In this document: positions 43,571-57,685 of the stretch, piece after piece | Position numbering within the stretch: the first letter of the stretch is position 1 | Layout of the letters: the number at the start of each line of letters is the position of its first letter | NCBI GenBank assembly: GCA_029781535.1 | Contig: JAKOWL010000250.1 | Span: forward strand, 34,711 to 98,710 | Source: Pseudomonadota bacterium | GTDB lineage: Bacteria; Pseudomonadota; Gammaproteobacteria; Burkholderiales; Methylophilaceae | Length of the DNA: 64,000 nucleotides | Direction of reading: 5' to 3' | The notes under the pieces: generated by a model | The model's input: only the letters and a program-made list of their open reading frames with translations | What the model was told of the DNA's origin: nothing | The model's database searches: none | Position numbers and translations under genes: made by a program

Positions 43571-46267
43571 CTAGGCATGCACTCGACCAAATGCTGAAAC
43601 CATGCGCTTGAGTTCCGGCACACAGGATCCGCACTGAGTACCGCACTTGAGCTTGGCCTGCAGCGTCTGCAAGTCCGCACCAGCCTCACAAGCCTCGACA
43701 ATCTCGTTCTCAGCCACATCCAGGCAATTGCAAACAATCTTGCCACGACCACGCTGACCTGTTGGCGGTGTACTCAATGGGGCCAATGCCCAGCGTCGGA
43801 GTTCATCACTGAACTGGCCTGTGGTCATCACTTCTTTCAACCAGTCTGCTGCCAGCGTCTCACCCACCAGCCGCACACCAGTGACCTGGCTATTTTGTAC
43901 CAGTATCCGTTTACTGATGCCGCGCTTGGCATCATCGTAGTGAAGCATGGGCGCACCTTCCAACATGCCCAACAACTGATCCAATCTTTCGATTATCCGG
44001 GTATCCGGAGCCCCATGATGCGCCACACGCAGAACCACCATACCACTGCCCCTTCCATAGAGGCCGCAAGTCGCATAATCAAAGTCAGGCAGCAATGTAC
44101 GTATGGATTGCAGCAAAGACAAATCGGCACAATTGCGCATCACCGTCATTTGCCAAGGCAAATCCAGCTTTTCGATTTTGATTGCAGTATGCTTCAATTC
44201 CGGCTGCTTTGAAGCTTTATCGAAAGCCGGCGGCATCAGCGCGTTCACGCCCAAGCCATGCATAGACTGGCTTCCCCAGTGCATCGGGATATAGGCTTCT
44301 GCAGGCTTCATCTCCCCGGATTCCGCGACGCGGATCACGAGGCTGCCACGCTTGTTGCTGACCTTGACGATATCCCCGGCCCTGATTTGGCGGCGCTGCA
44401 TATCATCCGCATGCATGGATATCACGGGCTCTTCGACATGGTTATACAACTGCGCGACTCTGCCGGTACGGCTCATGCCATGCCATTGGTCACGCAACCG
44501 CCCGGTCAACAGATGCAATGGATGCCGCGCATCGGTCTTATCCGCGGTGCCTTTGTATGATGCATTGACGAACCTAGCCTTGCCATCAGGTGTAGGAAAC
44601 CCGCCATCGGTATAAAGTCTTGCCATTCCTTTGCCTGCACCGGATTTGAATGGCCACTGCTGCGGGCCCTTATTTAGCAGGATATCGTAAGTCAGGCCAG
44701 TGATATCCAGGTCACGGCCACGTGTGCTTTCACGATGCTCGTTAAAGACAGCCTCCGTACTGACATAAGGGAACAGTTGTGGTTCCCTATCCAGATGCTT
44801 TTCCAACCGATGTGCGAAATCTACGACGATCTCCCAGTCATGGCGCGCCTCACCAGGAGGATTAACAGCAGACTGCACACGTGTGATACGCCGCTCGGAG
44901 TTGGTTACCGTCCCCTCCTTTTCTCCCCAGGTACTGGCTGGCAACAATACATCCGCGTACTGGCAAGTCTCGGTATTGTTAAAAGCATCCTGCACTACGA
45001 CCAGCTCAGCCGACTCTAGCGCTTTAAGCACATTGTTCACGTCAGGCATGGACTGCGCCGGATTGGTACAAGCAATCCATATTGCCTTGATTTCGCCGCT
45101 TCTAACAGCGTCAAACATCTCGACTGCAGTTTTGCCGGGGGTCGCAGGCACCTCATTTACCCCCCATAGCTTTGCGATTTCGGCACGATGTTCAGGATTC
45201 ATCAGGTCTCGATGTGCAGATAGCAGGTTCGCCATCCCACCTACTTCACGCCCACCCATCGCATTGGGCTGCCCAGTCAAGGAAAACGGTCCTGCCCCTA
45301 ACTTGCCGATCTGCCCCGTAGCAAGGTGCAGGTTGATTAGCGAGGCGTTCTTGTCAGTACCATGAATGGATTGGTTCAAACCCTGACAATACATAGACAG
45401 AGTGGGGCCTGCGCCGAACCATTTGGCTGTCTGGATGATATCTTTTTCACTGACTCCGCAAATATCTGCAACCATTTTTGGCGTATATTCACGCACTGTT
45501 TCTTTCAGCGCGTCAAAACCCGTGGTGTGCTTGCGAATATATTCATGATCCAGTAAGCCTTCCCACAACATGACATGAAGTAAGCCATTGAACAGCGCCA
45601 CATCTGTGCCCGGGTGAATCGCGAGATGGATATCAGCCAGCTGTGCGGTATCAGTCCTGCGTGGATCTACGACCACGACCTTCATATCCGGATCCTTGGC
45701 CTTCGCATCTTCGATGCGGCGGAAAACGATGGGATGTGCAAAAGCCGTATTGCTGCCCGCGATAAAGAGACATTTCGTATAGTTGATATCGTCATAACAG
45801 GCAGGCGGCGCATCAGCGCCCAAAGTAGCTTTATATCCTGCCACAGCGCTGGACATGCACAGACGCGAATTGGTGTCGATATTGTTGGTGCCTATCAACC
45901 CTTTGGCAAGCTTGTTGAATACATAATAGTCTTCGGTCAACAGTTGCCCGGAGATATAGAACGCCACGGCATCCGACCCATGCTTACCGATGATATTCGC
46001 AAACTTTTCTGCCAGATAGTCCAATGCGACATCCCAGCTCACATGCTGTCTCTGTGTATCGCGAGTTTGTCGCATTTCTGGGAATAATGCACGAAAATCC
46101 GTTGTTGCTGTTAAATGCAATGTAGAGCCCTTGGTGCATAAACGCCCAAAATTCGCAGGATGCTTCGGATCACCCTTCACATTGATAATTGCATTACCAT
46201 CAGATTCGATGATGACGCCACAACCAACCCCGCAATAGGGGCACGTTGACTTAGTCTCTTTGATCAT
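43571..46267 (-). CDS. nasA: Assimilatory nitrate reductase, molybdopterin catalytic subunit
   Basis: 898 aa from the ATG at 46267. The N-terminal [4Fe-4S] ligands are C9, C12, C16 and C44 (CPYCGVGC, LCTKG). The Mo-bisMGD domains span about 60-690. The C-terminal BFD-like [2Fe-2S] domain has CNCLDVAENEIVEA and CGTQCGSCVPELK (about residues 840-890), the NasA/NarB type with added cluster. It reduces nitrate to nitrite in the cytoplasm. Its start overlaps the nirD stop by 4 bp. It is last in the nirB-narK-kinase-nirD-nasA unit. Confidence 0.96.
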   Translation of the reverse strand: MIKETKSTCPYCGVGCGVIIESDGNAIINVKGDPKHPANFGRLCTKGSTLHLTATTDFRALFPEMRQTRDTQRQHVSWDVALDYLAEKFANIIGKHGSDAVAFYISGQLLTEDYYVFNKLAKGLIGTNNIDTNSRLCMSSAVAGYKATLGADAPPACYDDINYTKCLFIAGSNTAFAHPIVFRRIEDAKAKDPDMKVVVVDPRRTDTAQLADIHLAIHPGTDVALFNGLLHVMLWEGLLDHEYIRKHTTGFDALKETVREYTPKMVADICGVSEKDIIQTAKWFGAGPTLSMYCQGLNQSIHGTDKNASLINLHLATGQIGKLGAGPFSLTGQPNAMGGREVGGMANLLSAHRDLMNPEHRAEIAKLWGVNEVPATPGKTAVEMFDAVRSGEIKAIWIACTNPAQSMPDVNNVLKALESAELVVVQDAFNNTETCQYADVLLPASTWGEKEGTVTNSERRITRVQSAVNPPGEARHDWEIVVDFAHRLEKHLDREPQLFPYVSTEAVFNEHRESTRGRDLDITGLTYDILLNKGPQQWPFKSGAGKGMARLYTDGGFPTPDGKARFVNASYKGTADKTDARHPLHLLTGRLRDQWHGMSRTGRVAQLYNHVEEPVISMHADDMQRRQIRAGDIVKVSNKRGSLVIRVAESGEMKPAEAYIPMHWGSQSMHGLGVNALMPPAFDKASKQPELKHTAIKIEKLDLPWQMTVMRNCADLSLLQSIRTLLPDFDYATCGLYGRGSGMVVLRVAHHGAPDTRIIERLDQLLGMLEGAPMLHYDDAKRGISKRILVQNSQVTGVRLVGETLAADWLKEVMTTGQFSDELRRWALAPLSTPPTGQRGRGKIVCNCLDVAENEIVEACEAGADLQTLQAKLKCGTQCGSCVPELKRMVSAFGRVHA

Positions 46268-46572
46268 TTCAGCTCTATATACACAACGCCACCTTCTACT
46301 TTTATGGGATAGCACGCTACTTCGCCGACATCCGGCTCTTCGGCCTTGCCAGTTTCCAAGCTGATTTTCCATTGGTGCAGCGGGCATGCCACCTTATTGC
46401 CATAGACAATCCCCTGTGTCAACGGACCGCCTTTGTGTGGACAGCTATTATTAATCGCAAACACTCGGTCATCCTCAGTACGAAACACGCCTATATCTCC
46501 AGTGCCAGTGCGCACTACACGTGCCCCTAACTTCGGGACTTCATTCAAAGGACATACCTTTTTCCAGGACAT
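46264..46572 (-). CDS. nirD: Nitrite reductase small subunit (Rieske-type)
   Basis: 102 aa. The Rieske ligands are intact: C44 and H46 in CPHKGGPL, C63 and H66 in CPLHQW. Many NirD proteins lack these residues, so a cluster may be bound here. It partners the siroheme subunit NirB. ATG at 46572 (MSWKKVCPL) follows the kinase stop by 24 bp. Confidence 0.92.
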   Translation of the reverse strand: MSWKKVCPLNEVPKLGARVVRTGTGDIGVFRTEDDRVFAINNSCPHKGGPLTQGIVYGNKVACPLHQWKISLETGKAEEPDVGEVACYPIKVEGGVVYIELK

Positions 46573-46596
46573 ACAAACTCCGCACAAATTAAGTAA

Positions 46597-48285
46597 TTAA
46601 GAAACCAGCAACAAGTAAATCAGTAAAAAATTCAGCAACATCGAAAAAATGGCGATCCACTGCCACTTGACTAATCTGGCACGCGCAATCAATGGGGTGC
46701 GTTGTACTGCAATCGGCTTAAATTCACCATGCTCTAGCGCCAGCAACATTTCATCCGCAGTTTCAAAGCGCTTGTCCACATCATGTGCCACCGCCTTGAG
46801 GACAATATTTTCCAGCCAGCTTGGAATTTCCGGCCTATACCTAGTTGGCCTTGTTGGCTCGCCAAACCGCGGCGTCTGGAAAGGCTCAATCTCGCCATAT
46901 GGGTATTTTCGTGTAAGCAGATAATATAAAGTCACACCCGCCGCATATATGTCTGTGGCGATATTTGCCGTGCCCCCCGCGAAAAGCTCTGGTGCCATAA
47001 AGCTGGGCGTCCCAGGGTTTTCCATCTCTTCCGGCATATCTGTCATGGTGTTGAGGGCAACGCCTAAATCCAGAATACGCAAGCGCTGGTCACTGCCTAT
47101 GTGAATATTCGCAGGCTTAATATCGCGATGCACGATATTCAATCTATGTAACATACTTAAACCACGCATCATATCCACACCGATTTTGGCTACACCATTC
47201 ACTGTGAAGTGATGTCCGCTATCAATACGCTGCTGCAAGGTAGCACCTTCGTGCCAAGTCATTACAAAATACAGGTATTTACGTTGCGCTGGCCCCAATG
47301 GCAGAATCTGCGGCATAGCCTGTGAGACCACGCGCTTAGTCAACCATTCTTCATTCAACAATGCCTGGCAACTTTGCTTGTCCTCAGCTAATACCGGTTG
47401 CAATGTTTTCAGCACAAACAACTGGCCATTTTGGCTACGTACTTTGTATAGCAGGGTAGCGCGCGAGTCATGCAAAACCTCCTGCACCTCAAACCCATCC
47501 AGCACATCACCCACCTTGAGTTTTGGCGGAACCGGCAGCGACTGAGCATCTGCCAACACATCACTTAGGCTATCTTCACCGATGTCTTGAACCCGCACCA
47601 CCAATGCAGAAGCATTGTCTTGCCCTCCCTTAGCCAAGGCGTTTTTGGTAAGTTCGTCTGCTACCATCTGCGGGCTATCATACAGCATCATGGCGCGATG
47701 GATAGCCTCTTCACCAAGCGGCTCCCATACGCCATCACTCATGATGGCAAAAACATCACTCGTCTCCAGCAATCCGTCGGCATAATCCACACTTAAGTGA
47801 TTATCCAACCCAACGGCTCGCTTCAGCACATGACGCATCTCCGGGTTGTCCCATACATGATCTACCGTCAACTGCTTCAGCGATTTATTTCTCAGCAGGT
47901 AAATACGTGTATCTCCGACATGCGCTAGATAATAACGCTGGCCGCGCAATACTATCAGCGATAGTGTAGCGGCCATTCCAGCCAAATCGCGGTTGGCACT
48001 AGCTTGCGCCAGTACCCAACGGTTTGCCGCAGTAAGCACTTTGTCTAACGCAGCATGCGGCTCCCAAGTATCAGGCGTGGCGTAATAATCAGCCGAAACC
48101 GAACGCACAGTCATTTCCGAAGCCTCAGCACCACCCTCATTACCACTCACGCCATCAGCCACAGCCAATAAGGCGCCTTTTATTTTGAGTTGATCTTTAT
48201 TGGGTGTCACAACGCCAATATAGTCCTCATTACGTTTACGCGGGCCAATCTGACTGGATTGGCCGATTTCAAATTTAAGGGGCAT
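46597..48285 (-). CDS. PP2C phosphatase / Ser-Thr protein kinase fusion, membrane anchored
   Basis: 562 aa. Residues about 1-240 form a PP2C phosphatase (RNEDY, VADGVSGNEGG, HVGDTRIYLL, IMSDGVWEPL). About 260-525 form a Hanks-type kinase with catalytic loop HRDIKPANIHI, DLGV in place of DFG, and the APE-like MAPELFAGG. One C-terminal helix (about 540-560) anchors it with both domains in the cytoplasm. It lies between narK and nirD, so it may sense or modulate nitrate assimilation; fusions of this type are known next to nitrate genes in other Proteobacteria (recalled). Confidence 0.9.
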   Translation of the reverse strand: MPLKFEIGQSSQIGPRKRNEDYIGVVTPNKDQLKIKGALLAVADGVSGNEGGAEASEMTVRSVSADYYATPDTWEPHAALDKVLTAANRWVLAQASANRDLAGMAATLSLIVLRGQRYYLAHVGDTRIYLLRNKSLKQLTVDHVWDNPEMRHVLKRAVGLDNHLSVDYADGLLETSDVFAIMSDGVWEPLGEEAIHRAMMLYDSPQMVADELTKNALAKGGQDNASALVVRVQDIGEDSLSDVLADAQSLPVPPKLKVGDVLDGFEVQEVLHDSRATLLYKVRSQNGQLFVLKTLQPVLAEDKQSCQALLNEEWLTKRVVSQAMPQILPLGPAQRKYLYFVMTWHEGATLQQRIDSGHHFTVNGVAKIGVDMMRGLSMLHRLNIVHRDIKPANIHIGSDQRLRILDLGVALNTMTDMPEEMENPGTPSFMAPELFAGGTANIATDIYAAGVTLYYLLTRKYPYGEIEPFQTPRFGEPTRPTRYRPEIPSWLENIVLKAVAHDVDKRFETADEMLLALEHGEFKPIAVQRTPLIARARLVKWQWIAIFSMLLNFLLIYLLLVS

Positions 48286-48343: not shown

Positions 48344-49555
48344 TTAAACCTTTGCTGCGGTTGCTGTGGCACTTCCCCACGTCGTTCTCCAGCGTGTTTT
48401 TACGCCACTCAAACCCAACAGCGCCATTACTGCCAAGCCTGCAAAAATCAATAAGCCTATCTGATAACTGCCGCTATGCTGCTTGATATACCCCAGGCTA
48501 GCTGCCAAATAGAAACCTCCTACACCGCCTGCCATACCTACCAAGCCGGTCATTACGCCAATTTCCTTACGAAAGCGTTGGGGGACTAGTTGAAATACTG
48601 CACCGTTGCCCATGCCTAATGTAGCCATCGCAGGAATTACCACCATCAAAGACTTGGCAATAGTGGGCTGACCAAAACTCATCCAAAAAATCAACAGTGC
48701 TGCCATCGCATACATGATAAGCAAAGTGCGAATACCGCCAATGCGGTCTGCAACATAACCGCCAATAGGACGCACCAACGAACCTGCAAATACACAGGCA
48801 GCAGTACAATAACCCGCAATGACCGGACCGAGACTATATAAATCATTGAAATAGATGGTTAGACTAGAAGCCAGGCCAACAAAACCACCAAAAGTGACAC
48901 TATAAAAAAACATGAACCACCAGGCATCTTTATCTTTCAAGACGTTAGCATATTGCGCCAATGATTTAGGTGGTGGTGCATCTGGTGAGTCTTTAGCAAA
49001 CAAAACGTAAACTACCAGCGCAGTCACCAGTGGAATCAAAGCCATCCCGAACACATTATTCCACCCGTATGCCGCCGCCAAGCTAGGCGCAAATAACGCA
49101 GCAAACACAGTACCCGAGTTGCCGGCACCTGCGATTCCTAATGCGGTACCTTGGTGCTCTGGCGGATACCAGCGGCTAGCCAAAGGTAAAGCAACCGCAA
49201 AGGCAGCACCTGCAAATCCAAGAAATATGCCCAGCAGTAATGCTTGCTGGAAGTTTTGAATACCATGTAACCATGCTGCCAGTAAGGCCAGAATCACAAT
49301 CACTTGTCCTATCAAGCCAGCAATTTTAGGTTTAAGATGATCGACCAACACACCCATTACGATCCGCAGCAATGCACCCGCCAGTACTGGCGTAGCCACC
49401 ATCAAACCTTTTTGTGCCGGTGTAAGCTGTAAATCTGCCGCTATTTGCACAGCCAGTGGACCAAGTAATACCCATACCATAAAACTCAAATCGAAATATA
49501 AAAATGCTGAGAACAGTGTTGGTGTATGCCCAGCTTTCCAAAAACTAGTCTTCAT
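48344..49555 (-). CDS. narK: MFS nitrate/nitrite transporter (NarK/NasA family)
   Basis: 403 aa with 12 membrane helices. The two NNP nitrate signature regions are present: GNSGTVFAALFAPSLAAAYGW (split by helix 5) and GGVGGFYLAASLG in helix 11. F-x2-F and arginine residues typical of nitrate coordination lie in helices 2 and 8. It imports nitrate and may export nitrite. A second nitrate uptake system (nrtABD) lies upstream in the same island. Confidence 0.92.
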   Translation of the reverse strand: MKTSFWKAGHTPTLFSAFLYFDLSFMVWVLLGPLAVQIAADLQLTPAQKGLMVATPVLAGALLRIVMGVLVDHLKPKIAGLIGQVIVILALLAAWLHGIQNFQQALLLGIFLGFAGAAFAVALPLASRWYPPEHQGTALGIAGAGNSGTVFAALFAPSLAAAYGWNNVFGMALIPLVTALVVYVLFAKDSPDAPPPKSLAQYANVLKDKDAWWFMFFYSVTFGGFVGLASSLTIYFNDLYSLGPVIAGYCTAACVFAGSLVRPIGGYVADRIGGIRTLLIMYAMAALLIFWMSFGQPTIAKSLMVVIPAMATLGMGNGAVFQLVPQRFRKEIGVMTGLVGMAGGVGGFYLAASLGYIKQHSGSYQIGLLIFAGLAVMALLGLSGVKTRWRTTWGSATATAAKV

Positions 49556-49594: not shown

Positions 49595-52045
49595 TTAGAT
49601 GGTAATGGTTTGATACTCTTTGTATTCATCACGCTTTTGCACGCGATCCAGCCAGGGGTTGGTCGCACCTTGCAAAGCATATAGCAGTCTCTCATAGGCA
49701 GCTTTGCGGCCCTCATGGTCTTCCACTACACGTTTTTTCACATAATCCAAACCTACACGTTCAATCCAGTGCACAGTACGATCCAGATAGCGCGCTTCCT
49801 CGCGATAGATCTGAATAAAGGCACCAGAATACTCCATGACTTCCTCTGCCGTTTTTACCTTGCATAAAAACTGCGCGACTTCGGTTTTGATACCTCCGTT
49901 GCCACCCACGTAGATTTCCCATCCGGAATCGACGCCAATGATGCCCACATCCTTGATACCAGATTCCGCACAGTTTCTGGGGCAGCCGGATACCGCGAAT
50001 TTCACTTTATGCGGTGCCCACATGTGATCGAAGGCTTTTTCCAAATCGATGCCCATTTGAGTAGAATTTTGGGTACCAAAACGGCAGAACTCGCTACCCA
50101 CACAGGTTTTGACGGTGCGAATGCTCTTGCCGTAAGCGTAGCCGGATGGCATGTCCAGATCAGCCCACATATTAGTAAGGTCTTCTTTCTTTACACCCAG
50201 CAAGTCGATACGTTGGCCTCCGGTAACCTTTACCATTGGCACTTTATATTTGTCAGCCACATCCGCGATCTTGCGTAATTGATCAGGAGAGGTCACACCT
50301 CCGTACATACGCGGTACAACGGAATAGGTTCCATCTTTTTGAATATTCGCGTGCACGCGCTCGTTAATGAAGCGCGATTGCGGATCATCCTTGGCTTCAT
50401 GCGGCCAGGTCGAAATCAGATAATAATTGAGCGCAGGGCGACATGTCGCACAACCATTGGGCGTGCGCCACTGCATGCCTTTCATGGCATCCGGAATCGT
50501 CAGATATTTATGTTTACGTATCTCTTCTCGCACCTCTTCGTGATTCATCTCCGTACAACCGCATACAGCCTTGCTGGTAGATGGGGGTGCATAACCACCG
50601 CCTAGTGTAGAAGCTAGGATCTGCTCGACCAGACCGGTACAGCTGCCGCAGCTGGAAGCAGCTTTGGTCTGCTTTTTCACATCATCGATCGTGAACAAAC
50701 CCTTTTCTTTGATGGCTTTAACGATGGTACCTTTGCATACGCCATTACAGCCACAGACTTCCATTTCGTCGGTCATGGCAGCCGCTTTGTCCTGACCAGC
50801 ATGACCGGTATTTCCCAAGCTATCCTGCCCGAACATCAAATGGTCGCGTATCTCATGAATAGATTTGCCGTCACGGAGCATCTGAAAATACCAGGCTCCG
50901 TCGGCAGTATCGCCAAACAACACGCCGCCAATGATTTTGTCATTCTTGATGACGAGTTTTTTGTAAACGCCGCCCACAGCATCGTGCAAAACGATCTCTT
51001 CACGTCCGTCATCCGGCGCGCCTTCACCGCTGGAGAAATCACCTGCACTGAACAAATCAATCCCTGTAACCTTTAATTTTGTCGAGGTCACAGAGCCTTT
51101 ATATTGACCTATTCCAAAGTTAGCCAGATGTGTGGCACAAACCTTGGCCATTTCAAACAATGGCGCAACCAGGCCGTAAGAAATACCACGATGCGCTACA
51201 CACTCCCCCACTGCATAAATACGTGGGTCGTATGTCTGCATGGTGTCATTCACCACAATGCCCTTATTACAATAAATCCCCGCAGACTCAGCAAGCGCAT
51301 AGTTCGGGCGTATACCCACCGCCATTACAACCAGATCCGCTGCAACCTCCACTCCATCTGTAAAGCGCACTGCGCTGACGCGCCCATTTTTACCAATCAG
51401 CTGTTCAGTATTTTTGTTAAGCAGGAATTTGAGGCCTTTAGCTTCCAGGTTTTTCTGTAGCATACGGCCTGCCGTCTTATCCAACTGGCGCTCTAGTAAC
51501 CAATTGTTTTTGTGTACCACCGTTACGTCCATGCCTTGAATCTTCAGACCGTTCGCAGCTTCCAGACCAAGCAGGCCACCACCTATCACCACTGCATGCT
51601 TGTATTTTTTGGCGGCGGCAATCATGTCATTGGTATCTTTGATGTCACGATACCCCAGCACTCCCTGTAAATCAGCACCAGGAATGGGCAGCATAAATGG
51701 TTTGGAGCCAGTAGCGATCAGCAAGCGGTCATACTCGGCACTTGCACCGTCCTCTGCATATACCACGCGATTTTTACGGTCAATTTTGTTAATACGTGCG
51801 TTGGTGTACAACTTGATATTGTTTTCCGCATACCACTCACGAGAGTTCAGGATAATGTCATCGATAGTCTGCTCGTTCGCCAGCACAGGAGAAAGCATGA
51901 TGCGGTTGTAATTAGGGTATGGCTCGTCACCAAACACAGTAATGTCATAAATATCCGGTGCGATTTTCAACAGCTCTTCGACTGTTCTCATTCCAGCCAT
52001 ACCGTTACCTACTACTACTAACTTCATTTTTTGCATTTCCATCAT
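49595..52045 (-). CDS. nirB: Nitrite reductase (NADH) large subunit
   Basis: About 816 aa. N-terminal FAD/NAD(P)H domain (VVVGNGMAGMRTVEELL, later VIGGGLLGLEAANGL); then two BFD-like [2Fe-2S] segments (CGCNGVCKGTIV, CGCTEMNHEEV); then the siroheme/[4Fe-4S] domain with CVGSEFCRFG and CPRNCAESG. It reduces nitrite to ammonium. Several in-frame ATGs exist (52045, 52042, 52036, 52027); 52027 (MKLVVVGNG) matches many relatives. A sigma54 promoter starts transcription near 52064. Confidence 0.95.
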   Translation of the reverse strand: MMEMQKMKLVVVGNGMAGMRTVEELLKIAPDIYDITVFGDEPYPNYNRIMLSPVLANEQTIDDIILNSREWYAENNIKLYTNARINKIDRKNRVVYAEDGASAEYDRLLIATGSKPFMLPIPGADLQGVLGYRDIKDTNDMIAAAKKYKHAVVIGGGLLGLEAANGLKIQGMDVTVVHKNNWLLERQLDKTAGRMLQKNLEAKGLKFLLNKNTEQLIGKNGRVSAVRFTDGVEVAADLVVMAVGIRPNYALAESAGIYCNKGIVVNDTMQTYDPRIYAVGECVAHRGISYGLVAPLFEMAKVCATHLANFGIGQYKGSVTSTKLKVTGIDLFSAGDFSSGEGAPDDGREEIVLHDAVGGVYKKLVIKNDKIIGGVLFGDTADGAWYFQMLRDGKSIHEIRDHLMFGQDSLGNTGHAGQDKAAAMTDEMEVCGCNGVCKGTIVKAIKEKGLFTIDDVKKQTKAASSCGSCTGLVEQILASTLGGGYAPPSTSKAVCGCTEMNHEEVREEIRKHKYLTIPDAMKGMQWRTPNGCATCRPALNYYLISTWPHEAKDDPQSRFINERVHANIQKDGTYSVVPRMYGGVTSPDQLRKIADVADKYKVPMVKVTGGQRIDLLGVKKEDLTNMWADLDMPSGYAYGKSIRTVKTCVGSEFCRFGTQNSTQMGIDLEKAFDHMWAPHKVKFAVSGCPRNCAESGIKDVGIIGVDSGWEIYVGGNGGIKTEVAQFLCKVKTAEEVMEYSGAFIQIYREEARYLDRTVHWIERVGLDYVKKRVVEDHEGRKAAYERLLYALQGATNPWLDRVQKRDEYKEYQTITI

Positions 52046-52220: not shown

Positions 52221-53687
52221 TTAGAACGTATACATAGCAGTCAGCCAGAGTTTCTCGGTATCACGGATACGTCCACGATTGCCCGCTACGTTGTTAGCTG
52301 TGTTAGCAGCTGCGGCATAATGGTCATCTTCACTATATTTCCCGTATTCGACTTTGGCCATCCAGTTCTTGTTGACGTTATATGTCGCAGCCACATTCCA
52401 TTCAGTGCCATATTTGTCACCATTCGTCTTAGTACCGCTGCCCACGGTATAAAAATCTTTATCTGATTTGATCACGTGGTAATCTGCAAAAAACAGAATG
52501 TCATCCCATTTATAAGTCGCTGTCACGAAAGTGTCCTGTATACCCTGTCTTGGTGTTGCCAGAAACTTATCCACCCACCCCTGGAACAGGTGATTAGTGC
52601 CCAATGGGGTCTGAAAAGCATATTTACTGTCATTGCTAGACAACAGTTCCTGGTCGGCACGAATCGTGAAATTATCGATACCAACACCACCCCCCACTTT
52701 GTAGTAATGCGCATCTATACGCTTGTCCCCGCTTTGATAGTCTGTCTGTTTAGCATATTCAGCGGTGTAAAGCGCCCTCAGGTTTGGGTTGAATGGGTGT
52801 ATGCCATCCAGACGCAACCCGAGAATCTTGTTGGACTGGTCTGCGGATGCATTGGGCTTACCATTATTGTTGAGCGTGCCTGCGCCAAACCAGGCGTTAC
52901 CAAAACCCAAATCTTCAAAACCATCCAGATAAGCATAGCCAATCAGGTTCTCAGTAGGTGAAATACGATATTTAACATTAGCAATCTCGAGCGCACCTTC
53001 ATCGCGGTTCTTGGTAGTGATTTGTCTCACACGCTCAAAGTGAGCCAAAAAGACCTCTGTATCAGGAATGCTTTTATTCAATACCGAAACTCCATCAAAC
53101 ACTTGCATTACTTGGCGGAAACCAATATCCCCGATGAACCGAACGTTATCCAGGTTGACTTGTTGTCGGCCAAGACGAAATTTGGTGTTTCTGATCCCCG
53201 TCCAATCGATATAAAGTTGATTGATTCCTGTATATGTCGGATCGACAATCTTTGCATATTCCACGGTTCTGATTTGGTTAGAAGCACCATTGATGAGCGT
53301 GTTATTGGTGCTATCGTTAAAGTTATCTACAATTTTTGTCACATCTATCAACTGCGCTGCAAAACTAAAGTTTTTGTAAGGTGCTGTTTGCCAGCCTATC
53401 AAGCTGCGCAGTGTTAGTCCCTCGGCATCTTTGAGCTCTTGATTCGCAGTTGGATTAGGAGTTGTACCCACGATAGTTGTCGGCTGCAGACCATCTTGAT
53501 CCACATGCTCATAACGCAACCTGAAGCTGGTCAAATTCTTGCCTTGTTTTACCGAGTCCATAAAAGTATATTCATCTTCAGAGTGTGTTACGGCCTCTTC
53601 AGCAAGTGCCGCATATGAGAACGCTGCCAGCGCCATGCCTAAAGCAAATGCAAGCTTGGATTGATTAAAAATATTTAAAGATTTCAT
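52221..53687 (-). CDS. Outer-membrane beta-barrel porin (alginate-export domain type)
   Basis: 488 aa. A signal peptide (residues 1-29, ending ALA) is followed by a barrel with repeated amphipathic strands and a C-terminal aromatic residue (LWLTAMYTF). Segments such as LTSFRLRYEHVDQDGL and KLRLGRQQ-like RLGRQQVNLDNVRF match the alginate-export/porin group. It lies between nrtD and nirB, so it is likely the outer-membrane entry for nitrate. Substrate unproven. Confidence 0.82.
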   Translation of the reverse strand: MKSLNIFNQSKLAFALGMALAAFSYAALAEEAVTHSEDEYTFMDSVKQGKNLTSFRLRYEHVDQDGLQPTTIVGTTPNPTANQELKDAEGLTLRSLIGWQTAPYKNFSFAAQLIDVTKIVDNFNDSTNNTLINGASNQIRTVEYAKIVDPTYTGINQLYIDWTGIRNTKFRLGRQQVNLDNVRFIGDIGFRQVMQVFDGVSVLNKSIPDTEVFLAHFERVRQITTKNRDEGALEIANVKYRISPTENLIGYAYLDGFEDLGFGNAWFGAGTLNNNGKPNASADQSNKILGLRLDGIHPFNPNLRALYTAEYAKQTDYQSGDKRIDAHYYKVGGGVGIDNFTIRADQELLSSNDSKYAFQTPLGTNHLFQGWVDKFLATPRQGIQDTFVTATYKWDDILFFADYHVIKSDKDFYTVGSGTKTNGDKYGTEWNVAATYNVNKNWMAKVEYGKYSEDDHYAAAANTANNVAGNRGRIRDTEKLWLTAMYTF

Positions 53688-53725
53688 CTTGGTTCCCTGT
53701 GTATTTTGTTGATATCTATTTTGAA

Positions 53726-54526
53726 TTAAGCAGCTTTCTTGGCATGGCGCTCGTAAAGGAAACGCAACACCTCGCTACGTAAATGGTTGTAGGTTGCATC
53801 CTCTGCCAAGGCTAGGCGGTTACGCTGTTTTGGCAGGCTAACATCCAGAATCTCGCCTATCGTTGCGGAAGGCCCGTTGGTCATCATCACAATACGGTCT
53901 GAAAGCAATACAGCCTCATCCACATCATGCGTCACCATGACCGCTGTACAATTCTTTTCCGTCATGATGCGCATCAATTCATCCTGCAGATTGGCACGGG
54001 TCAACGCATCCAGCGCACCAAACGGTTCATCCAGCAGTAACACTTTTGGCTCCATTGCCAATGCCCGCGCTATACCTACCCGCTGTTTCATCCCACCTGA
54101 TATCTCATGCGGCCTTTTCTCAGCGGCATGTGTAAGCCCCACCAGCTTAAGTGCTGCATACGCACGCGCTTCCAGTTGCATGCTGGTTTCAGATTCAAAA
54201 ACGCGCTCTACAGCAAGATATACATTTTCAAAGCAGGTTAACCAAGGTAACAAGGAGTGGTTCTGAAACACGACCGCACGCTCAGGCCCTGGCCTAGCAA
54301 TCTCGCGGCCAGCACAGAATAAATGGCCTGAGGTAGGTTCTAACAGCCCAGCGATCAGGTTCAATACCGTGGACTTGCCACAACCAGAGTGGCCGATGAT
54401 GGAGACGAACTCGCCCTGGTCAATACTCAGGTTGATATTATTCAATGCTTCAAACGTACCTTTTTTGGTCACGAACTTCATACCTACATTTTCGAGGTAT
54501 ACATATTTTTCGATTGGTTTTTCCAT
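53726..54526 (-). CDS. nrtD: Nitrate ABC transporter ATP-binding protein
   Basis: 266 aa, single ATPase domain without the extra NrtA-like domain of cyanobacterial NrtC. Walker A GHSGCGKST, signature ISGGMKQRVGIARAL, Walker B VLLLDEPFGALDA. The ATG at 54526 has GGAAGGAAAC upstream; a longer frame to 54697 runs into nrtB and is rejected. It energises uptake through NrtA/NrtB. Confidence 0.93.
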   Translation of the reverse strand: MEKPIEKYVYLENVGMKFVTKKGTFEALNNINLSIDQGEFVSIIGHSGCGKSTVLNLIAGLLEPTSGHLFCAGREIARPGPERAVVFQNHSLLPWLTCFENVYLAVERVFESETSMQLEARAYAALKLVGLTHAAEKRPHEISGGMKQRVGIARALAMEPKVLLLDEPFGALDALTRANLQDELMRIMTEKNCTAVMVTHDVDEAVLLSDRIVMMTNGPSATIGEILDVSLPKQRNRLALAEDATYNHLRSEVLRFLYERHAKKAA

Positions 54527-54548
54527 GTTGTTTCCTTCCAGCATGTAT

Positions 54549-55445
54549 TTATTCGTAAGAAAAGCGTTTGGCGATGAGCAGCAGCGATTGCTCCAGCAGC
54601 AATCCGATGATCCCCACCACAAATATCGCGATGATGATGTGTTCCACCACCAGATTGTTCCACTCGTCCCATACCCAGAAGCCAATCCCTGCACCACCGG
54701 TCAGCATCTCTGCGGCCACAATTACCAGCCACGCTGTGCCAATGGACAATCGAATGCCGGTCATCATGTATGGCAACACGCTAGGGAACAGAATTTTGGT
54801 GACGATCTTCCACTCACTCAGGTTAAGTACCTTGGCCACATTCATGTAATCTTGTGGCACTTTGGATACGCCCACGGCAGTGTTGATAATCATTGGCCAT
54901 ATCGCAGTGATGAAAATCACCCAGATTGCGGCTGGGTTTGCCGCCTTGAACACCAGCAAACCTATAGGCAGCCAAGCCAGTGGTGAAACAGGGCGTAGCA
55001 AGCTAATGATGGGGGATGTCATGCGTGCCAGGAACTCGAAACGACCAATCATGAAACCAAACGGAATACCCACCAATGCCGCCATACTGAAGCCCAGACC
55101 GACACGTTCAAGGGAATTGAGGATATTCCAGCCAATCCCCTGATCATTTGGGCCATTGATATAAAATGGATCGCTAAACAGTTTTACTGCTGCCTCGAAA
55201 GTCACAATAGGTCCTGGCAGACCCTTGGTAACAGCCGCAATCATGCTCCAGACACCTATCAACAGTGCCAAACCCATCACTGGCGGTATTAACCACTGCA
55301 TAAATGGTTTAACTTTGCTTAAGGCACTGCTTTTAGCAATCGATGCGACTGTGTCTTCTTTAACTGCTGATTTATCCTCAACAATCTGTACTGCAGCCAT
55401 ACCCGGTTTCGATTCAATGGGTTTTTCTTCAGTTTTTGATTGCAT
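54549..55445 (-). CDS. nrtB: Nitrate ABC transporter permease
   Basis: 298 aa from the ATG at 55445, with AAGGAAGG 7 nt upstream. Six or so membrane helices; the EAA loop reads ...SKVPQDYMNVAKVLNLSEWK. The N-terminal 45 residues are charged and soluble (KPIESKPG, VEDKSAVKED). It forms the membrane channel of the nitrate/nitrite importer. Confidence 0.92.
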   Translation of the reverse strand: MQSKTEEKPIESKPGMAAVQIVEDKSAVKEDTVASIAKSSALSKVKPFMQWLIPPVMGLALLIGVWSMIAAVTKGLPGPIVTFEAAVKLFSDPFYINGPNDQGIGWNILNSLERVGLGFSMAALVGIPFGFMIGRFEFLARMTSPIISLLRPVSPLAWLPIGLLVFKAANPAAIWVIFITAIWPMIINTAVGVSKVPQDYMNVAKVLNLSEWKIVTKILFPSVLPYMMTGIRLSIGTAWLVIVAAEMLTGGAGIGFWVWDEWNNLVVEHIIIAIFVVGIIGLLLEQSLLLIAKRFSYE

Positions 55446-55510
55446 AGGTAAACCTTCCTTGCGTAGTGGCACAACACTCATGGTGGGCTCCCAAATATAG
55501 TCTAGTAAAA

Positions 55511-56803
55511 TTAAGCCTTGATCTTGAACCCTGCTGCATAGGCAGATGGATTGCTGCCATCCCATACGACACCATCCATCAGCTTGGAAGAACGCATCTG
55601 TTTTTTCGGTACACTTACTCCTACTTGTGTTGCAGCTTGTGTATACAAATCGATATGATTAACCTTCTTGGCAACAGCCAAATAGTCCGGGTCTGACTTC
55701 AACATGCCCCAGCGTTTATGCTGTGTCATGAACCACATACCATCAGACAGGTACGGGAACGGCACGGCACCGTCATTGAAGAATTTCATGTAGTTCGGGT
55801 CCTTCCATTTTTTACCGTTACCATTGTCATAATCACCAAGAAAACGGCCTAAAATCACATCTTTTGGTGCATTGACATAAGCCTTGCCGGAAATCAGTTC
55901 TGCCACACTGGCACGGTTAACAGAAGCGTCGATATATTTGCAAGCCTCCAACACTGCCATAATCATGGCACGGGCCGTATTAGGATATTTGGCAACAAAT
56001 TCGGCAGTAGTGCCCAACACTTTTTCCGGATGGTCTGTCCAGATATCCTGACTTGTTGCGACTGTATAACCTACTTTGTCGTAGATGGCGCGGGCATTCC
56101 AAGGCTCACCGACACAGAAGCCATCCATATTGCCAATACGCATATTGGCCACCATTTGTGGTGGCGGCACCACGATAGTTTTCACGTCCTTGATTGGGTC
56201 AATGCCATTGGCTGCCAACCAGTAGTTCAGCCACATCGCGTGTGTGCCGGTCGGAAATGTCTGTGCAAACGTGTAATCACGGTTTTCATTTTCAATCAGA
56301 CGCTTCAAGCTTTTGCCGTCTTTAACCCCTTTTTCCTTGATCTGATTGGACAAGCTGATACCCTGGCCGTTATTGTTCAAAGACATCAGCACCGCCATAT
56401 CTTTTTGCTGACCACCAACACCCATTTGCACACCGTAGACCAAACCATAAAGCACATGTGCAGCATGCAGTTCCCCATTTACTACCTTATCACGCACACC
56501 TGCCCAGCTTGCTTCCTTACTAGGTGTGATTTTGATTCCGTATTTCTTGTCAAAACCCATTTCAGCTGCGACGACAATCGGCGCACAATCGGTCAACGGG
56601 ATAAATCCTATCTTCACTTCAGTGAGCTCAGGCGCATCTGAACCTGCAGCCCAAGCGCTACTGCGTATTCCGGCTGGTACGATATTCATCATGGCTGCCG
56701 CTCCAAACGCACCTGCAACAGCCTGTTTGAAAAAGCCTCTTCGGCTGGCATCCATCTGGTTTGCAGATTCGATCTTGGCAATCTTTTTGGCGCTTTCACT
56801 CAT
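55511..56803 (-). CDS. nrtA: Nitrate ABC transporter substrate-binding protein
   Basis: 430 aa. A twin-arginine signal is present (SRRGFFK, residues 20-26, then a hydrophobic run to about AWA at 52), so it is exported folded. The NrtA/CmpA-type fold follows (EVKIGFIPLTDCAPIVVAAE, later MRIGNMDGFCVGEPWN). It binds nitrate or nitrite in the periplasm. It is preceded by the ANTAR leader and has a strong AAGGAG site. It is not NasS, which lacks a signal. Confidence 0.92.
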   Translation of the reverse strand: MSESAKKIAKIESANQMDASRRGFFKQAVAGAFGAAAMMNIVPAGIRSSAWAAGSDAPELTEVKIGFIPLTDCAPIVVAAEMGFDKKYGIKITPSKEASWAGVRDKVVNGELHAAHVLYGLVYGVQMGVGGQQKDMAVLMSLNNNGQGISLSNQIKEKGVKDGKSLKRLIENENRDYTFAQTFPTGTHAMWLNYWLAANGIDPIKDVKTIVVPPPQMVANMRIGNMDGFCVGEPWNARAIYDKVGYTVATSQDIWTDHPEKVLGTTAEFVAKYPNTARAMIMAVLEACKYIDASVNRASVAELISGKAYVNAPKDVILGRFLGDYDNGNGKKWKDPNYMKFFNDGAVPFPYLSDGMWFMTQHKRWGMLKSDPDYLAVAKKVNHIDLYTQAATQVGVSVPKKQMRSSKLMDGVVWDGSNPSAYAAGFKIKA

Positions 56804-56828
56804 GTCTACTCCTTATCAATTCACAAAT

Positions 56829-56888
56829 AAAAAAGGCGTCTTGAGCATGCGGCAGCACGAAGCCTACCTACATATTCAAGACGCCTTT
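56829..56888 (-). terminator. Attenuator terminator before nrtA
   Basis: Minus strand, perfect 13-bp stem AAAGGCGTCTTGA/TCAAGACGCCTTT with a loop of about 31 nt, ending in a T-run (six T's, three in the stem). Its left arm overlaps ANTAR hairpin P2. Confidence 0.88.
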
Positions 56889-56924
56889 GTCTCTATTTAA
56901 AACGAAATACCAACCTTGGCATTT
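56878..56924 (-). promoter_or_regulatory. Two-hairpin ANTAR-target RNA (NasT antiterminator site)
   Basis: P1 (56905-56924): 7-bp stem AAATGCC/GGTATTT (one G-U) with hexaloop AAGGTT. P2 (56878-56893): 5-bp stem GAGAC/GTCTT (one G-U) with hexaloop AAAGGC. Both hexaloops have A at position 1 and G at position 4, the ANTAR recognition rule. An 11-nt linker separates them. P2 uses the left arm of the terminator, so the two folds exclude each other. NasT bound here would allow read-through into nrtA. Confidence 0.82.
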
Positions 56925-56991
56925 CTAACTTTTGTGTCACCCGCCATTGGGAAACACAACATTTGCATCTACTACTGAATAACTTAACCCG

Positions 56992-57570
56992 CTACAAAAT
57001 CAGCATTTTTGCCGCATCTATCAATTGTCCTGACAAATCCGCCAATTTCATGTTTTTTTTCATCGCCATGCTGCGCAACAGGCTATAAGCCTCGTCTTCA
57101 TCCAAATTGCGCTGCTTCATGAGTAACCCTTTTGCCTGCTCTACTACTTTGCGCTCTTCGAGTTTTAGCTTCGTCAGCGCCAACTCTTCACGTAAGTTAT
57201 TGAATTCTTCAAATCTGGCAATTGCTGCATCTATCACCGGAGTCAACCTTTCTGTGGGAATATTACCGACCACATAAGCACTCACACCTGCTTGTGTCGC
57301 CGCACGAATCTTGTCCTTATCTCCATCATGCGTAAACATTACCACAGGGCATCCTGCATTCATGGTCATTACACATACATTCTCCAGGGCATCACGATTT
57401 GGCGATTCCATATCCATGATCACTATATCCGGCTTCAACCGTGCACACTGATCCTCGATATTTATCGCATTCTTGATATGCGCGACCACCTCGTAACCAT
57501 TATCAACCAATGATTGCTTGAGCGGTTTGCTTCGATCAGGCTCATCGTCGATAATCATTACCCTTAGCAT
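56992..57570 (-). CDS. nasT: ANTAR-domain antiterminator NasT
   Basis: 192 aa. Receiver-like domain with IDDEP and D53 (IVIMDME); coiled linker (about 115-135); C-terminal ANTAR domain with KVVEQAKGLLMKQRNLDEDEAYSLLRSMAMK. It binds paired-hexaloop hairpins and prevents termination in nitrate operons. Start is the ATG at 57570 (MLRVMIIDDE) or 57558. A sigma54 promoter predicts a start point 1 nt upstream of the first, so this gene may be leaderless. No nasS gene is next to it. Confidence 0.92.
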   Translation of the reverse strand: MLRVMIIDDEPDRSKPLKQSLVDNGYEVVAHIKNAINIEDQCARLKPDIVIMDMESPNRDALENVCVMTMNAGCPVVMFTHDGDKDKIRAATQAGVSAYVVGNIPTERLTPVIDAAIARFEEFNNLREELALTKLKLEERKVVEQAKGLLMKQRNLDEDEAYSLLRSMAMKKNMKLADLSGQLIDAAKMLIL

Positions 57571-57581
57571 GGTCGAACAAA

Positions 57582-57597
57582 AGCAATTGCTATGCCA
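57582..57597 (-). promoter_or_regulatory. Sigma54 (-24/-12) promoter of nasT-nrtABD
   Basis: Minus strand TGGCATAGCAATTGCT, with GG and GC at exact spacing and TTGCT at -12. Predicted start point is 57571, directly abutting the ATG at 57570. Confidence 0.75.
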
Positions 57598-57685
57598 CAC
57601 TATTCAACAATAAATAACCTAATGATTCTAATAGATTAATTACGAATATTCAGAATTCTGATTGTGACAATTAGCGCCTCAGCAA

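Follow-up and report, generated by a model that had tools for sequence, protein, structure and literature searches.

A PP2C phosphatase-Ser/Thr kinase fusion paired with NarK and FNT transporters is a candidate phosphorylation switch for nitrate uptake

What does a protein that joins a phosphatase to a kinase do inside a nitrate operon, and on which of its neighbours would it act? Plants are well known to shut off nitrate uptake fast, at the post-translational level, and a fast shut-off has long been described physiologically in bacteria; in the open-licence PMC literature we found no paper on a dedicated enzyme for it in Proteobacteria. The window, i.e. the whole stretch of 64,000 nucleotides analyzed here, sits on a 98.7-kb contig of a 2.39 Mb genome and carries a minus-strand operon in the order nasT, nrtA, nrtB, nrtC, porin, nirB, narK, fusion, nirD and nasA. 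Its upstream part (52221-57600, nasT encoding an ANTAR regulator) was assigned from the ORFs and conserved neighbours. The large and small nitrite reductase subunits NirB (49595-52045) and NirD (46264-46587) score above the cut-offs of TIGR02374 and TIGR02378, respectively, and the nasA-like assimilatory nitrate reductase gene (43571-46276, listed ORF starting at 46387) gave a NasC-type NCBIfam match below its cut-off. The narK gene (48344-49555) encodes a nitrate/nitrite MFS transporter of 403 aa, the proposed substrate, with PDB matches to NarK/NarU and a TIGR00886 score of 294 bits (E 1.4e-87, cut-off 311.7). The fusion gene (46597-48285) lies on the same strand, 58 bp from narK upstream and 9 bp from nirD downstream.

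The fusion gene is an uninterrupted ORF with an ATG start, encoding 562 aa, and both domains were recognized by Pfam. The N-terminal PP2C-type phosphatase domain (residues ~1-235, 47581-48285, PF13672/PF00481) matched PP2C_2 (PF13672) over residues 17-194 with E 7e-14, and has the conserved metal ligands D21, D44, D184 and D223. It is followed by a Hanks-type kinase domain (residues ~260-520, 46726-47508), which matched Pkinase (PF00069) over residues 280-507 with E 4.5e-30 and has K293, E312, HRD388, N393, DLG406-408 and APE433, that is, the Hanks-type set of K, αC-Glu, HRD, DFG/DLG and APE. This domain order is the architecture of the bifunctional class. Among 60 fusion homologues the kinase residues K293, E312, H386, D388, N393, D406, G408 and P432-E433 and the phosphatase residues D21, D44, G45, D184, G185 and D223 were invariant, and the catalytic residues were near-invariant, with rare single exceptions, in 139 members outside a distant outgroup (see below). 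By this residue census the kinase and phosphatase sites are both intact, and the observation made in the sequence-only reading, one polypeptide with two putatively opposing activities between narK and nirD, is confirmed. The nearest named relatives of the protein are from Methylotenera (67-72% identity). The host genome also has two further kinase and PP2C gene pairs that are not fused (G000:C65:14446-15798 and G000:C159:17459-18521), one of which adjoins an FHA-like and a GAF/HD-like gene.

The same reading had taken the DLG motif as a mark that sets this kinase apart. At position 407, 105 of the 139 intact members have F (DFG) and 31 have L (DLG), so that DLG is common family variation and distinguishes nothing. 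The real oddity of the fusion, overlooked at the time, is the missing glycine-rich loop, as GxGxxG was found in 0 of 149 family members; the region usually reads HxSxxS, and HDSRAT in the window. Judged from the sequence, loss of this loop could mean weak or unusual use of ATP.

The C-terminal anchor suggested earlier was supported by both hydropathy and structure prediction, which place one membrane helix at residues ~540-561 (46603-46668). The Kyte-Doolittle maximum (19-residue window) is 2.48 at this helix and never exceeds 1.08 elsewhere in the protein, and a structure prediction from 18 Methylotenera orthologues showed a helix at 532-561 in a model that was otherwise poor (mean pLDDT 50, pTM 0.39). 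A C-terminal hydrophobic stretch (Kyte-Doolittle at least 1.6), preceded by a conserved L-x-x-R-x-P-x-x-x-W motif, is present in 141/149 family members, and the mid-helix Asn552 in 53 of the 139 intact ones. No NCBIfam equivalog reached its cut-off on the fusion: the Stp1/IreP PP2C phosphatases (NF033484), whose mode of action the fusion would share, gave 141 bits against a cut-off of 230 and the PknB/Stk1 PASTA kinases (NF033483) 140 bits against 450. PASTA repeats were not found by Pfam scan, nor was any other recognised sensor domain on the chain by Pfam and NCBIfam scans.

To place the fusion in a wider context, 398 Pseudomonadota genomes were surveyed. A single-protein search matched 59 of them at 1e-80 and a profile of 22 sequences matched 125 at 1e-90. 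A NasA-like protein (E <1e-140) was encoded in 119 of the 125 fusion-bearing genomes vs. 93 of the 273 without the fusion (odds ratio 38, Fisher p 3e-34, where p overstates independence since the genomes are related). The linkage to nitrate expected by the sequence-only reading is hence conserved across genomes, and the fusion is not scattered without regard to it.

A census of the neighbours of 148 fusion loci gave a more specific picture. The immediately upstream same-strand gene was narK in 56 loci and an FNT (FocA/NirC-like) channel gene in 54, and in 14 further loci narK or FNT was found one gene away, divergent or convergent: narK-porin-fusion (L036, L056, L139), FNT-cynS-fusion (L145, L147), divergent narK (L048, L205, L212, L217), convergent FNT (L166, L169) and convergent narK (L087, L088, L090). 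An anion transporter, NarK or FNT, thereby neighbours the fusion in 124 of the 138 catalytically intact loci (degenerate outgroup left out), a conserved genomic pairing as expected for a transporter-dedicated phosphorylation switch. The remaining loci are contig ends or moved genes (e.g. L041, L078, L079, L085, L086, L089, L136, L138, L196, L210). At L138 the gene upstream of the fusion is amtB (ammonium transporter), and narK or FNT was not found on its short contig. The same pairing of fusion and transporter occurs on annotated plasmids of Azospirillum, Methylobacterium, Methylocystis, Ideonella, Thioclava and Acinetobacter. A nas or nir gene was present within the stretch read at 52/63 narK-linked loci vs. 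only 20/58 FNT-linked loci. The constant partner of the fusion is the transporter and not the reductase, and the linkage, although real and widely conserved, is wider than nitrate reduction, which refines the earlier placement of the protein in the nitrate operon.

Ten loci (L213-L216 and L218-L223, e.g. L214) form a distant outgroup of degenerate PP2C-kinase proteins, where D21 is replaced by S and D184 by Q, the HRD Asp and the αC Glu are lost and K293 is kept. From these residues the proteins look like pseudophosphatase-pseudokinases, and in the loci read they are flanked by genes for inorganic pyrophosphatase and PPi-dependent phosphofructokinase. Both fusion domains were also matched, at ~26% identity and in 1-2 aligned pieces, in five unannotated human-gut 'Bacteriophage sp.' records (MT836646.1, MT835604.1, MT835527.1, MT836046.1 and MT835883.1), which may be bacterial contigs.

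The association with FNT is a property of one branch of these channels. Of the FNT genes with at least 67% identity to the FNT of L038, 58/65 adjoin a fusion gene (for G227 the neighbour is probably cut off by the contig end), and none with 61% identity or less was found beside a fusion among the matches listed. The partner FNT scored 144 bits against TIGR00790 (cut-off 232.3). Both the window NarK and the partner FNT thus fall below their subfamily cut-offs and represent side branches of the NarK/NasA (TIGR00886) and FocA/NirC (TIGR00790) superfamilies, to which the partner transporters of the fusion belong. A cyanase gene (cynS) was found near the FNT-fusion pair in 20/58 FNT-linked loci (among them L038, L045, L145, L147, L164, L175 and L192) and in 0/63 narK-linked loci; the cyanase-linked channels may handle cyanate or bicarbonate. 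For Pseudomonas pseudoalcaligenes it has been proposed that cyanate enters through nitrate/nitrite transporters (PMC6627978), which fits a theme of anion uptake. In the strain described there, narT is BN5_2121 and nirBD-nasA are BN5_2123-2125 (PMC6627978), and BN5_2122, missing from that list, would occupy the place expected for the fusion. Compared with close kinase-free FNTs, no Ser/Thr specific to the fusion-linked channels was found. An N-terminal STRDT and a C-terminal THxRT were considered as kinase-specific sites and rejected, as both also occur in close kinase-free FNTs.

For NarK the comparison gave a candidate. The C-terminal tail of the window NarK (residues 385-403, 48347-48403, minus strand) contains the sequence RWRTTWG, where T391 and T392 are candidate phosphoacceptors. 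It is rich in Arg/Lys and comes after the last hydrophobic span (362-387), and from known NarK topology we take the termini to be cytosolic. The RTTW motif was present in 57/64 fusion-linked NarKs of the window type, including those of only 40-44% identity (L212, L217), and in 2/2 NarKs whose genome has the fusion at another locus (L247, L255), as compared to 0/18 kinase-free NarKs of 51-66% identity. The linked exceptions are six Burkholderiales NarKs with RWTRTW instead of RWRTTW, and L105, whose tail is unreadable (frame broken or truncated). The kinase-free set consisted of ten plasmid-borne NarKs, for which absence of the fusion was checked within ~5 kb, and eight from genomes without a profile match; kinase-free nitrate operons of similar layout (nasT-nrtA-narK-nirBD-nasA) were found on Blastomonas, Sphingomonas and Acidiphilium plasmids.

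All 403 columns of NarK were then scanned in 35 linked sequences (Burkholderiales left out, Methylotenera thinned) vs. the 18 kinase-free ones. T391 ranked first as discriminator, and out of 69 columns invariant in the linked NarKs it was the only one absent from all 18 kinase-free. Overall column conservation did not differ between the sets (0.74 and 0.73), hence it is specifically the tail that is relaxed. The next-ranked columns were L173, D208 and R329, the latter two located outside predicted membrane spans, near loops. In a maximum-likelihood NarK tree built without the tail columns, fusion and motif changed 6 times each. The tree gives 4 independent pairs with support, where the motif followed the fusion in almost all pairings (mean 3.8/4, never the opposite), which is not significant at p = 0.125. 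A 500-aa NarK subtype carries another tail, so the T391 result concerns the window-type NarK. Looking for a co-conserved acceptor in each transporter thus gave T391 in window-type NarK (4 independent contrasts) and none in FNT. A corresponding scan of NirB (22 vs. 9) and NirD (23 vs. 7) showed no Ser/Thr that follows the fusion as T391 does in NarK. NirB does have five residues of that distribution, none of them Ser/Thr, in one cluster at residues 297-331 (F297, K301, H306, G311, L331).

That T391 is kept with the fusion and missing without it suggests, at the level of sequence, that an on/off switch is built into nitrate uptake. We therefore hypothesized that the fusion by itself makes up a complete phosphorylation switch for the adjoining transporter, with T391 (together with T392) as the likeliest target in NarK, a reading we regard as probable, if by a modest measure. 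The single C-terminal helix would anchor the protein to the inner membrane, and the two catalytic domains would face the cytosol, where the kinase would add phosphate to the cytosolic face of the co-encoded transporter (NarK here, FNT in other lineages) and the PP2C domain would remove it; in window-type NarK this would take place at T391, with T392, in the RWRTTWG tail. As one chain holds both kinase and phosphatase, the balance of the two activities would set the state of the transporter, and nitrate/nitrite uptake could be halted and resumed more quickly than transcription permits, e.g. when ammonium appears or nitrite accumulates. Since no further sensor domain was recognised on the chain, the signal could come from the transporter, from the membrane helix or from a soluble metabolite. 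Of the substrates proposed in the sequence-only reading, NarK gains support from the tail and NirB does not, so its interpretation is partly supported.

The lack of a sensor domain and the linkage to two unrelated transporter folds can also be accounted for if the transporter is the sensor, i.e. if the conformation of NarK/FNT, or the flux through it, controls the fusion, which then phosphorylates another protein (NasT, a PII-type protein, an enzyme). The NarK tail would in that case be a docking site, and conservation with the kinase would be expected of a docking motif no less than of a substrate; the FNT channels without kinase-specific Ser/Thr agree with this. However, no protein gene other than the transporter recurs as constantly beside the fusion, and the sole NarK position invariant with the kinase and absent without it is a threonine rather than a general docking residue, so we find this explanation unlikely, though the strongest of the alternatives.

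It is also conceivable that the tail threonines mark a lineage and that the fusion acts on something unrelated (e.g. ATP- or stress-linked housekeeping), the linkage reflecting co-regulation or co-transfer only. There are just four independent contrasts, and L173, D208 and R329 separate linked from kinase-free NarKs as well. Yet the linkage holds across different arrangements of genes and strands and with either of the two unrelated transporters, and the motif is kept both in the divergent NarKs mentioned above and where the fusion has moved away from narK, which makes such a coincidence improbable. We give slightly less credence still to a switch acting on the reductases NirB, NirD or NasA: they share the operon with the fusion in the window and in most narK-linked loci, but the scarcity of nas/nir genes at FNT-linked loci and the column scans of NirB and NirD both speak against it. 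The preferred reading, phosphorylation of the adjoining transporter, can be extended to the whole of this widespread proteobacterial family of membrane-anchored one-chain enzymes, which would gate uptake of nitrate, nitrite and possibly cyanate by reversible phosphorylation of NarK/FNT, with the pair of tail threonines as the site in NarK, as an independently evolved counterpart of the plant NRT2.1 switch. This extension we hold tentatively, with doubt a little ahead of belief.

The protein class itself is known. A PP2C + kinase class with the same domain order on one chain as in the window was reported in 2005 by Krupa and Srinivasan from Pseudomonas and Deinococcus and was called uncharacterised, and the passages of that paper dealing with the class mention neither nitrate genes nor transporters in connection with it (PMC1262709). 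Such genes are named 'bifunctional protein-serine/threonine kinase/phosphatase' by NCBI. In P. aeruginosa PA1782 is listed as one of three kinases (PMC8560001); by locus number it lies, as in the window, between a transporter gene, nasA (PA1783), and nirB (PA1781), neighbours that are nitrate-assimilation genes and strongly NtrBC-dependent (PMC7214821). The entry gi|9947763 of the 2005 paper is presumably PA1782. In the open-licence PMC literature no paper was found on the function of the fusion, its transporter linkage or the NarK tail. With class and names published and nothing found on function, the family is known; what appears to be new is the rule of a transporter partner, along with the candidate acceptor residue. 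Comparative genomics thus yields a candidate enzyme for nitrate-uptake shut-off, together with the transporter it is paired with and one specific residue. A kinase-phosphatase on one chain, with a transporter partner in place of a sensor domain, also raises the question of whether a Ser/Thr kinase can have a transporter as its receptor.

Among known systems, PrkC/PrpC, Stk1/Stp1 and PknB/PstP are opposed pairs from the same two enzyme families. They consist, however, of two proteins, in which sensor domains (PASTA or others) are present and the glycine-rich loop is intact, whereas the fusion is one chain that has no sensor domain and has lost the loop. On the substrate side the closest parallel is plant NRT2.1, which belongs, like NarK, to the MFS nitrate transporters and is inactivated in high-affinity uptake by phosphorylation of C-terminal Ser501, which is raised on ammonium nitrate (PMC10944928). 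As phosphorylation blocks uptake there, inhibition would be expected for a NarK switch as well. The site sequence is different and the plant kinases are separate proteins, so the parallel is one of analogy and not of homology between the switches.
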